A stretch of DNA of 64,000 nt from Agromyces sp. H66 (GTDB lineage Bacteria; Actinomycetota; Actinomycetes; Actinomycetales; Microbacteriaceae). Below the pieces are notes generated by a model that saw nothing but the letters and a program-made list of their open reading frames with translations, made no database searches and was not told where the DNA came from. Shown piece by piece: positions 17,718 through 42,849 of this stretch (its first letter is position 1; every line of letters starts with the position of its first letter). Position numbers and translations under genes: made by a program. The stretch is from assembly GCF_004959775.1 (NCBI RefSeq), contig NZ_SJZG01000002.1, forward strand, positions 1-64,000, given 5' to 3'.

Positions 17718-18194
17718 ATGCGATCGGGCGTGAGGCTCGGCATCGACGTGGGGCGCGCTCGCATCGGCGTGGCCCGGTGCGACGCCGGTGCCCTCCTCGC
17801 CGTGCCCGTCGAGACGGTGCCGCGGTCCGCCGAGGGCGACGCCGACGTGCGCCGGGTCCTCGAGCTGGCGGACGAGTTCGGAGCGTTCGAGCTGGTGGTG
17901 GGGCATCCGCTCTCGCTGTCGGGGGCATCGACGGCATCGACCGACGATGCGGTCGGCTTCGCCGAGCGGCTGGCGGCGGCGGGCGCATCGGTTCGGCTGG
18001 TCGACGAGCGGCTGTCGACGGTGAGCGCGCAACAGGCGCTTCGCGCCTCGGGCCGATCCACTCGCAGCCAGCGTCCGGTCGTCGATCAAGTTGCAGCGGT
18101 TATCATTCTGCAACACGCCATCGACACGGAGCGGGCGTCGGGTGCCGAGCCCGGACGGCTGCTCACGACAGACGAAGGGTCGTCCCCCCTGTGA
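17718..18194 (+). CDS. ruvX: Holliday junction resolvase-like protein RuvX (YqgF)
   Basis: A 158-residue RNase-H-fold nuclease. In other bacteria YqgF processes the 5' end of pre-16S rRNA; a junction-resolving role has also been proposed. Visible motifs are RLGIDVGRARIGVARCD at the start (first catalytic Asp), LVVGHPLSLSG, and LVDERLSTVSAQQALRASG followed by VDQVAAVIILQHAID with the last acidic residue. ATG at 17718 is the only start consistent with the family. The stop overlaps the mltG GTG (GTGA). alaS-ruvX-mltG-aroE is the usual actinobacterial order. Confidence 0.94.
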   Translation: MRSGVRLGIDVGRARIGVARCDAGALLAVPVETVPRSAEGDADVRRVLELADEFGAFELVVGHPLSLSGASTASTDDAVGFAERLAAAGASVRLVDERLSTVSAQQALRASGRSTRSQRPVVDQVAAVIILQHAIDTERASGAEPGRLLTTDEGSSPL

Positions 18195-20080
18195 CCCACC
18201 TTCCTCCCGCCTCGCCGGGCGGCGGACGCGATCGGCCGATGACCCGTCGCGAGGCGCGCGAGGCCGAGCAGCGGAGGGCCGAGCTGCTCGCCCAGCAGCA
18301 GCTGGCGCAGGAGCAGGCGGCAGCGCAGGCGGCAGCGCAGGCGGCCGCACAGTCGGCCGCTCCGCCGTGGCCGTCGCAGGCTCCGGCGGGGGAGCAGCCG
18401 GGCCCCGCCGCCGCACGGCCCGCAGAGCCCCTCGACGTCCCGCGCAGACCCGTGTACGACCGGGATCCCATACCGCAGTCATGGCCGGGCACGCCGCAGC
18501 CGCCGGTGCCGACGGCCCATCAGCCGGCCGAGCAGCAGTGGGCGGCCGAGCAGCAGCGTGCGGCCGAGCAACAGCGTGCGGCCGAGCAGCAGTGGGCGGC
18601 CGAGCAGCAGTGGGCGGCCGAGCAGCGGGCCGCCGAGCAGCAGTGGGCGGCTGAACAACAGCGTGCGGCCGAGCAGCAGTGGACGGCTGAGCAGCAGTGG
18701 GCGGCCGAGCAACAGCGCGCGGCCCCGTCCCAGCAGCCGTGGGCGGCCGAGCGGCCGGGTGCGGCCGAGCCGCCGGGCGCGGTCGAGCCGCAGCAGTGGC
18801 CGGACGAACCGCAGGCGGGACAGTCGGAGACGACGTTCCGCTGGCAACTCGACGACCCCGACCCCTCCGGGCAGCCGCGCGAGCAGCAGAGCGGGTCGCC
18901 GTGGGACGAACTGGAGGCCGGGCCGGGCGACCCCGACGACGAGCCGCACGGGCGGCTGAGCCGCGCCGAGCGTCGAGCACTCAAGCGGGATGGGTACGAC
19001 GACGAGCGGCCACGCCGGAGGGGCGCGTGGGGCTGCCTCGTCGGATTCCTCGTGTTCGTCGCGCTCGTCGCGGGCGCCTTCTTCGTCCTGCAGGGCCCGA
19101 TCAACTCCCTCATCGAGCGCTTCACGCCCGCCGAGGACTTCGAGGGTGCGGGCACGGGTGAGCTGGTCTTCATGATCCACGAGGGCGACACCGGCGCGGA
19201 CATCGCGGAGAACCTCGTCGATGAGGGCGTCACCGCTTCCTATGACGCGTTCTACGATCTCCTCCTCGCGCAGACCCCCGAGCCCGAGTTCCACCCCGGC
19301 GCGTACCTCCTCGCCGAGCGGATGAGTGCGCAGGCCGCGCTCGACGCGCTCGTCGACCCGGCGAACAAGCTCGAGAACACGTTCGTGATCCAGGAGGGGA
19401 TGTGGGCGAAGAACGCGCTCGCCGAGGCGGCCTTCGTCACGGGCATCCCCGTCGAGGAACTGCAGGCCGCCGCCGCGAATCCGCAGGCGTACGGCCTGCC
19501 GGCCGAGGCCACGACCATCGAGGGCTTCCTGTTCCCGGCGACCTACACGGTCGATCCGAACATCACGGCCGAGGCGCTCGTGAAGATGCTGGTCGACCGA
19601 TCGTTCGAGGCGCTCGACGCCGCGGGCGTGCCGCCCGAGGACCGGTGGCGCACGATCGTCAAGGCCTCGCTCATCGAGCGTGAGGCGGGCCTCCGCGACG
19701 ACTACTACAAGGTTTCCCGGGTCATCGAGAACCGCCTGAATCCCGAGCTCTTCGACAGCGGGCTCCTGCAGTTCGACTCGACGGTGCACTACGGACTCGG
19801 CGACGACTCGGTCGTGACGACGACCGACGCCGAGCGCGCCGACCCGGCCAACCCGTACAACACCTACGTGCATCCGGGCCTTCCGCCCGGCCCCATCGGC
19901 AACCCGGGCGATCTCGCGATCGACGCGGCCATCCATCCCGCCGACGGACCCTGGCTGTTCTTCGTGACGGTCGACCTCGACACCGGCGAGACCGTGTTCT
20001 CGGCGACGATCGAGGAGCACGACGCGGCCGTCGAACGGTTCCTCGCGTGGCTCGAGGAACACCCGGAGTACGGCAACTGA
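18191..20080 (+). CDS. mltG: Endolytic transglycosylase MltG
   Basis: A 629-residue membrane enzyme that cuts nascent peptidoglycan and sets glycan chain length. Residues 1-280 are an unusually long cytoplasmic arm. It has an Ala/Gln/Glu-rich start with AAAQ repeats (18317-18352), an 11-unit AAEQQ(W/R) repeat (18524-18718) and an acidic stretch. One membrane helix follows (GCLVGFLVFVALVAGAFFVL, about 280-300), then the extracellular YceG/MltG domain. That domain has EGFLFPATY, the catalytic-Glu segment KASLIEREAG, LLQFDSTVHYGLG and NTYVHPGLPPGPIGNPGD. GTG start overlaps the ruvX stop; the aroE ATG overlaps its own stop (TGATG). Confidence 0.93.
   Translation: MTHLPPASPGGGRDRPMTRREAREAEQRRAELLAQQQLAQEQAAAQAAAQAAAQSAAPPWPSQAPAGEQPGPAAARPAEPLDVPRRPVYDRDPIPQSWPGTPQPPVPTAHQPAEQQWAAEQQRAAEQQRAAEQQWAAEQQWAAEQRAAEQQWAAEQQRAAEQQWTAEQQWAAEQQRAAPSQQPWAAERPGAAEPPGAVEPQQWPDEPQAGQSETTFRWQLDDPDPSGQPREQQSGSPWDELEAGPGDPDDEPHGRLSRAERRALKRDGYDDERPRRRGAWGCLVGFLVFVALVAGAFFVLQGPINSLIERFTPAEDFEGAGTGELVFMIHEGDTGADIAENLVDEGVTASYDAFYDLLLAQTPEPEFHPGAYLLAERMSAQAALDALVDPANKLENTFVIQEGMWAKNALAEAAFVTGIPVEELQAAAANPQAYGLPAEATTIEGFLFPATYTVDPNITAEALVKMLVDRSFEALDAAGVPPEDRWRTIVKASLIEREAGLRDDYYKVSRVIENRLNPELFDSGLLQFDSTVHYGLGDDSVVTTTDAERADPANPYNTYVHPGLPPGPIGNPGDLAIDAAIHPADGPWLFFVTVDLDTGETVFSATIEEHDAAVERFLAWLEEHPEYGN
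18317..18352 (+). repeat. AAAQ tetrapeptide repeat in mltG
   Basis: Three 12-nt units coding A-A-A-Q in tandem; the first two are identical (GCGGCAGCGCAG) and the third has two changed third positions. It lies upstream of the longer hexapeptide repeat in the same cytoplasmic arm. Confidence 0.8.
18524..18718 (+). repeat. Tandem AAEQQ(W/R) repeat in mltG, 11 units
   Basis: Eleven in-frame units of 18 nt (one of 15 nt) code for P/A/T-A-E-Q-Q-W or -R, giving 65 residues. The order of the last residue is W R R W W R(short) W R W W R. Units differ at synonymous sites (CAG/CAA, GCC/GCT, GAG/GAA), so the repeat is not freshly made, but several neighbours are identical. Confidence 0.95.
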
Positions 20081-42165: not shown

Positions 42166-42849
42166 ATGACGACGCGGATCAACCCGAGCATCCTCGCTGC
42201 CGACTTCGCGAACCTCGAGCGCGAGCTCGGGCGCATCGACACCGCCGACCTCGTGCACGTCGACATCATGGACAACCACTTCGTGCCGAACCTCACGTTC
42301 GGGCTGCAGATGGTGCGGCGGCTGCAGGAGGTCTCGCCGATCCCGCTCGACGTGCACCTCATGATCGAGGACCCCGACCGGTGGGGTCCCGCCTACGCCG
42401 AGGCCGGAGCATTCTCCGTCACGTTCCACGCCGAGGCGGCCGGCGAGCCGGTCGCCCTCGCGCGTCGGCTGCGCGCCCTGGGCGCGCGGGCCGGAATCGC
42501 GCTGAAGCCGGGCACCGACGATGCGCCCTACATCGACCTCCTGCCCGAGTTCGACCAGGTGCTCGTGATGACGGTCGAGCCGGGCTTCGGCGGCCAGTCG
42601 TTCATCCCGGAGACCATGCCGAAGCTCGCTCGGCTCGCCGACGTGATCCACGACGCGGGGCTCGACGTGTGGCTCCAGGTCGACGGCGGCATCACGGAGG
42701 AGACGATCGGCATCGCCGCCACCGCCGGCGCCGACACGTTCGTGGCCGGGTCGCACGTCTTCAACGGCGAAGTGCCCGCCGAGCGCATCGCGTCGCTGCG
42801 GGCCGCCGCCGCCGCGCACTCGCACCGGCCGGGCTCCGGGCACCGGTAG
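42166..42849 (+). CDS. rpe: Ribulose-phosphate 3-epimerase
   Basis: 227 residues, TIM barrel. It interconverts ribulose 5-phosphate and xylulose 5-phosphate in the pentose phosphate pathway. Markers are [16 protein letters not shown] at the start, [15 protein letters not shown] (catalytic Asp and metal ligand), [23 protein letters not shown] and the phosphate-binding VDGGI. The tail is Ala/His-rich. It precedes the his genes; ribulose 5-phosphate feeds PRPP, the precursor of histidine and tryptophan. Its TAG stop starts the hisE -10. Confidence 0.96.

Follow-up and report, generated by a model that had tools for sequence, protein, structure and literature searches.

The window analyzed here, a stretch of 64,000 nucleotides from Agromyces sp. 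H66 (contig NZ_SJZG01000002.1), carries on its forward strand an mltG gene (18191..20080) that encodes 629 amino acids and begins with a GTG codon overlapped by the ruvX stop codon (18192-18194). The product matched PF02618 (216.4 bits over residues 328-615; cut-off 32.4), which places the extracellular YceG/MltG domain at 19172..20035 (forward strand), as well as TIGR00247 (136.6 bits, exceeding the cut-off of 103.4). A single membrane helix, predicted by AlphaFold2 for residues 278-311 (19022..19123, forward strand) and containing the hydrophobic segment GCLVGFLVFVALVAGAFFVL, and an extracellular catalytic domain, as expected of MltG/YceG, were both found. E498 (in ASLIEREAG) was invariant across an alignment of 63 rows, and from its position we take it to be the catalytic Glu of MltG; solved relatives of the enzyme part include 8yoa and 2r1f. 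Overall, the product is an ordinary YceG enzyme anchored in the membrane, and its cytoplasmic arm is long. The genome belongs to Agromyces (Microbacteriaceae); among the named matches listed, Agromyces bauzanensis ranked first for the extracellular part (93% identity), and this species (G012) also adjoins the window MltG in a tree of the extracellular domain. Two observations favor GTG at 18191 as the start codon: 45 of 46 Agromyces arms begin with V-[TSP]-x-x-P (4 of these 45 starts having themselves been chosen by that pattern), and 14 of 45 arms lack any Met ahead of the TRRE motif described below.

Within the arm, an array of AAEQ(Q)(W/R) units spans exactly 18524..18718 (forward strand) in the mltG frame. 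The initial annotation had reported eleven hexapeptides at this position; the array, its coordinates and the number of units were recovered, but unit 6 is a pentapeptide (AAEQR), leaving ten hexapeptides, with units 1 (PAEQQW) and 10 (TAEQQW) also being atypical. TRF assigned a period of 18 nt with 14.8 copies (18525-18793) and a score of 274, as compared to a top score of 102 among 500 codon-shuffled copies of the arm. The tract extends to 18793 because decayed extra units (APSQQPW, AAERPG, AAEPPG and AVEPQ; 18719..18793, forward strand) continue the array. A 12-nt repeat with 3.8 copies, also identified by TRF, encodes an AAAQ run (EQAAAQAAAQAAAQSA; about 18311..18358, forward strand). Trp closes units 1, 4, 5, 7, 9 and 10 and Arg closes units 2, 3, 6, 8 and 11, so that successive Trp residues are 18, 6, 11, 12 and 6 residues apart rather than regularly every six or twelve residues, as had been proposed. 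TRF further reported a period of 87 nt, i.e., five units minus one codon, which means that part of the W/R order may be due to block copying.

Short arrays were found in 21 of 931 genes (crude gene calls covering 1.2 Mb of the 4.23-Mb genome), among which the mltG array was top-scoring. When the whole genome was searched at the protein level with the array, no second copy was retrieved, the one weak extra match (E 0.11) being the array's own decayed tail; as the array occurs at one genomic place only, AAEQQ was ruled out as a mobile repeat or as a repeat family spread over the genome. Outside the window, a different tandem array, with 65.8 copies of a GTGCCGAA-like octanucleotide (G000:C1:227702-228227; L197:7702-8227), lies directly upstream of a gene that by eye resembles a GNAT acetyltransferase; as its period is not divisible by three, it could shift the frame or alter expression.

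AlphaFold2 modeling of the window MltG with 63 sequences (mean pLDDT 76.8; pTM 0.55) predicted, besides the membrane helix, helices at residues 19-55 (block pLDDT about 60-86; this helix includes the AAAQ run), 112-177 (mostly 85-96) and, over a short stretch, 258-264, with disorder predicted between the first two and after residue 177. The array was modeled as one straight helix of 66 residues (112-177), corresponding to 9.9 nm at 0.15 nm per residue, in line with the initial suggestion of a helical array. AlphaFold2 is, however, generous with isolated Ala/Glu/Gln helices, which are easily over-predicted. Trp and Arg were spread around the modeled helix, and no one-sided clustering of W, R, E, A or Q was detected with 3.6 or with 3.5 residues per turn; a Trp face on the helix was thus not observed. 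A coiled coil was ruled out, as no significant heptad-type stripe was present at 3.5 residues per turn. ER/K-type single alpha-helices consist mostly of Glu, Arg and Lys and are held by i to i+4 salt bridges; with 11 Glu, 5 Arg and no Lys in 65 residues, the array was also rejected as a member of this class. In the MltG of Agromyces sp. Soil535, a decapeptide array falls within a single predicted helix (residues 20-125).

We compared the arm across three samples, i.e., 46 of 49 Agromyces genomes, own genome included (no mltG match was obtained in G027, and contig ends truncated the gene in G014 and G022), 74 of 80 named loci (L040, L048, L050 and L078, which were cut, and L105 and L111, with unsure starts and short arms, were excluded), and 21 of 31 genomes from other families of the order. 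Eighteen of the 74 named loci come from Agromyces, and their species overlap with those of the genus sample; seven arm starts were re-picked with the pattern V[TSP]xxP. The median arm length was 163.5 residues in Agromyces (range 100-280), 130 in the named loci and 37 in the other families. A short cytoplasmic end, described in the initial annotation as the norm for MltG, is hence usual outside the family, while Agromyces arms are usually long. The claim of an unusually long arm of about 280 residues held, as the window arm, with 280 residues ahead of the membrane helix, is the longest among the 141 arms. Long MltG arms of different sequence, rich in Tyr, Pro and Gln, were seen in three 8-10 Mb genomes of another family (L252, L253 and L254, from G096, G116 and G133), which have a HAFFAGG/HPFFTGA stretch in common. 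In G006, equal-scoring mltG matches near both ends of its single 3.61-Mb contig (C1:22443-23300 and 3589018-3589875) probably reflect a circular assembly whose overlap was left untrimmed.

The arm is a repeat hotspot in which the unit is not conserved. Of the 46 Agromyces arms, 11 contained an array of at least 3 copies, as did 13 of the 74 named arms; in these same two samples, none were found in the extracellular part (0/46 and 0/74) or in the 480 bases upstream, within ruvX (0/46 and 0/74), and no array was seen in the 21 arms from the order's other families. In Agromyces, TRF repeats covered 13.9% of arm bases as compared to 0.9% of both the extracellular part and the upstream region. Copy number or unit differed between species, each represented by one genome, with units of 12 (AEAEWRAEQERQ, EWRAEQERLAEQ), 10 (WAAEQQAAQQ, EQWPAEPVPD), 6 (EPEVEV) and 5 amino acids (AAEQQ/AAAQQ, GATPT, AQPGP) as well as EKA in a Cryobacterium. 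Two or more adjacent AAEQQ(W/R) units occurred in only one of the 141 arms, the window's own; the repeat is thus absent from most close relatives, which the initial annotation had named, together with a lack of phenotype, as counting against its reading.

The nearest relative has a 5-aa array and Agromyces sp. Soil535 a 10-aa array, and three other members of the window clade have no array and a single W-x-A-E-Q-like seed. Such a single-copy seed precedes arrays in both the window clade and the clade of G002 and G010; the latter two share one unit by descent, as do G021 and G034. On the tree of the extracellular domain, array presence required 8 changes (7 forced by well supported branches; mean for shuffled labels, 10.2), and a quick tree in which G035 and L049 were also counted as array-bearing gave 10 changes (8 forced; shuffled mean 11.8). 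As these numbers are only slightly lower than those for shuffled labels, array presence is scattered. All listed periods are divisible by 3 and hence keep the frame, as coding repeats necessarily do. These data clearly exemplify how in-frame arrays have formed repeatedly, across a genus, in one linker of a housekeeping enzyme. A search with partial literature coverage retrieved no published account of MltG arrays or arm motifs in Microbacteriaceae, which is weak evidence of novelty.

Two short Arg-rich motifs, identified by pattern conservation, flank the array, i.e., TRREAREAE (TRREAREAEQRR; 18242..18277, forward strand), with T18 directly before predicted helix 19-55, and SRAERR (residues 257-262; 18959..18976, forward strand), with S257 directly before predicted helix 258-264. 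The pattern [ST]RR[EDQ].R was found in 45 of 46 Agromyces arms (maximum of 2 in 200 shuffles), 39 of 56 arms from other Microbacteriaceae and 0 of 21 from other families, and [ST]R..R[RK] in 38/46 (shuffled maximum 5), 15/56 (maximum 7) and 4/21 (maximum 5), respectively; the shuffles preserve composition only, and all counts are from related species and uncorrected for kinship. In a class-wide sample (39 loci from 60 genomes searched, with several starts unsure and one locus cut), 5 of 39 loci had a SRAERR-type motif with N permitted at the cap. The low frequencies in other families and class-wide rule out this Arg motif as an actinobacterium-wide feature of MltG. In the sampled part of the genome (n = 931), 8 proteins contained [ST]RR[EDQ].R and 30 contained [ST]R..R[RK].

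Across the 63-row alignment, R19 and R20 were invariant and E21, R23 and R262 were conserved in at least 90% of rows. A helix-capping residue preceded both motifs, with S or T before RR in 45/46 Agromyces arms and S, T or N before the second motif in 40/46. The last [ST]R..R[RK] in Agromyces arms was located 24-32 residues from the arm end, and none of the 24 arrays extended over the core of either motif. The strength of the case for conservation is that the linker turns over yet the motif stretches stay put. A third motif, W-x-x-L-L-x-G (DWHALLAGD), neighboring the TRRE motif, was observed near the arm start (e.g., L135, L143, L145) in 36/46 Agromyces arms, 13/56 arms of other Microbacteriaceae and 0/21 arms of other families; a DWHALLAGD-like motif has been lost in the closest clade of the window. 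TRRESR also precedes the membrane helix of a class E-like sortase (own genome, C12:316081-317109), which was considered as a second carrier of the motif and dropped, since only 3 of 49 genus genomes, the own genome among them, gave a match to it at E 1e-30 or better.

We consider it moderately probable that the array region serves as an evolvable spacer of helical form within a docking arm. The arm would consist of two Ser/Thr-capped, Arg-rich helical motifs, TRREAREAE and, approximately 24 residues before the membrane, SRAERR, joined by a loosely constrained linker, and the AAEQQ(W/R) array would be one of many lineage-specific expansions of this linker. The array most likely originated by replication slippage and block duplication, and expansions would be retained where the product is soluble and, in the window MltG, helical. 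The array may then act as a spacer of roughly 10 nm that sets the distance of the first motif from the membrane, with docking performed by the Arg motifs rather than by the repeat. As arrays of other species are Pro-rich (GATPT, AQPGP) and unable to form rods, a rigid ruler is not a common design.

Under a model of neutral slippage only, length and content of the arm between the motifs would have no effect. The extreme range in length and the turnover of units within one genus are what neutral slippage would produce, as is the occurrence of structurally opposite arrays at the same place. Conversely, pN/pS was 0.18 among the ten full window units (0.08 for positions 1-5) and 0.15-0.36 in four other Trp arrays; values above 1 were obtained for three non-Trp arrays (G012, 1.48; L053, 1.19; L059, 2.64). 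In the Trp arrays, these values hint that peptide composition has been held while silent sites drifted; as the underlying events are few and non-independent and the units of the comparison arrays were picked by peptide similarity, this is a hint and not proof. That every listed array is in frame also argues against neutrality, although any coding repeat must be. Overall, we consider neutral slippage alone unlikely.

A spacer in a docking arm calls for a partner. In the accessible part of their study, Cleverley et al. (2019, PMC6335420) describe that GpsB binds helical SRxxR(R/K) motifs near the membrane that are capped by Ser, Asn or Thr, with Bacillus clients including PBP1, YpbE (SRVERR) and YrrS (SRYENR, NRDKRR), and that GpsB is a homologue of actinobacterial DivIVA/Wag31, in which its Tyr/Asp dyad is conserved. 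SRAERR in the window MltG fits this description of a helical, capped, membrane-near cytoplasmic motif, insofar as the helix predicted for residues 258-264 (pLDDT about 50) is formed. The Wag31 of this genome (P0002; GYDQDEVDDFLD) aligns with Bacillus GpsB (GYKQEDVDKFLD) through GYxQxxVDxFLD and retains the Tyr and Asp pocket positions. Moreover, DivIVA of Streptococcus suis has been reported, in the text available, to bind MltG (co-IP and two-hybrid) and to affect its position (PMC10269899). The likeness to GpsB clients, the retention of Tyr and Asp in Wag31, and the S. suis interaction together make Wag31 the most specific candidate partner. A second DivIVA-like N-terminus (GYDKDEVDKSLNGL), followed by a long coiled-coil-like tail, is encoded besides Wag31 at L151:1375-3111 (G000:C3 around 42174-42539).

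By analogy, MltG might thus be a DivIVA/Wag31 client, with one or both Arg motifs binding the Tyr/Asp pocket of the N-domain and the spacer setting the reach. The motif was found in none of 5 coding N-termini of PBP, FtsW and RodA proteins read (of 6 loci in the genome, all but the class B PBP locus L175), the single match in the FtsW frame falling upstream of likely starts, and these proteins were not retained as fellow carriers. DivIVA is widespread, whereas the SRAERR-type motif was confined to a minority of MltGs in other Microbacteriaceae, other families and the class-wide sample. The lack of the motif in five PBP/SEDS proteins and in most MltGs from outside the family weakens the idea of a DivIVA partner. 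In addition, Arg-rich juxtamembrane sequence is expected from the positive-inside rule. We therefore regard the client relationship as unlikely on present evidence.

In an alternative account, docking or condensate formation is due to the array itself, in which Trp and Arg would serve as stickers. Trp makes up 6 of the 65 array residues as compared to 1.5% in a proteome sample, most units contain Trp in five Agromyces arrays that differ in their units, and the peptides of these arrays appear to be held more than their silent sites. Arrays without any Trp also occur at the same place, however, and W and R are not clustered along one side of the helix. As the single-copy W-x-A-E-Q-like seed predates the arrays, Trp may simply have been copied along, and the confinement of the hexad array to one of 141 arms indicates that the repeat is not the conserved docking element. 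We thus consider this account quite unlikely; of the docking arm originally proposed, the arm remains plausible, with the short Arg motifs as its conserved candidates.

The capping residues T18 and S257 could, by analogy, also be targets of a PASTA kinase that regulates MltG, since IreK is described, in the accessible part of the report concerned, as targeting T20 in the cytoplasmic segment of MltG from Enterococcus faecalis, with consequences for resistance (PMC12369325). The presence of S or T before RR in all but one of the Agromyces arms, which would be consistent with such a switch, is equally explained by helix capping, and we judge a phospho-switch very unlikely. Although the assembly is a 33-contig draft and the tract comprises <300 bases of near-repeats, an assembly artefact affecting the copy number or the array itself is extremely improbable, as the array is in frame, silent changes distinguish its units, and relatives assembled into a single contig (e.g., G002, G010) have comparable arrays.

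Taken one step further, the evolvable spacer suggests a speculative model, to which we attach little credence, that Microbacteriaceae MltG is a two-motif Wag31/DivIVA client in which repeat turnover in the linker provides an evolvable ruler that tunes how MltG is held at growth sites. If true, the ruler would set, species by species, how far from and how strongly at growth sites the terminator of glycan strands is held. To our knowledge, the placement of the enzyme that cuts nascent glycan in actinobacteria is not settled. The comparison separates a disposable part of the arm (the repeat) from a kept part (the two Arg motifs), short Arg-motif peptides represent testable candidates for Wag31 binding, and Agromyces arms should be useful for studying linker length versus function.

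The arm can be compared with three known systems, each as described in the accessible parts of the respective reports. MltG of E. faecalis and Streptococcus is likewise a YceG enzyme with one membrane helix and a long cytoplasmic segment; the E. faecalis segment is predicted to be disordered and is phosphorylated (PMC12369325), whereas long helices are predicted for the Agromyces arm, and the available text on Firmicutes MltG describes neither tandem arrays nor a TRRE/SRAERR pair, unlike what is seen in Agromyces. With the clients of GpsB, Agromyces MltG has in common a Ser/Thr/Asn-capped cytoplasmic Arg motif near the membrane, and YpbE is, like MltG, a single-pass cell-wall-binding protein (PMC6335420). 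This likeness is motif-based, and the Agromyces protein differs in its candidate partner, Wag31 rather than GpsB, and in its second motif and long spacer. Finally, the repeats of archaeal Borg elements, which create intrinsically disordered regions, are also recent, independent, in-frame arrays within proteins (PMC9879509). In contrast to the Borg repeats, a single host gene has been hit repeatedly across a bacterial family here, and several of the resulting arrays are predicted to be helical.
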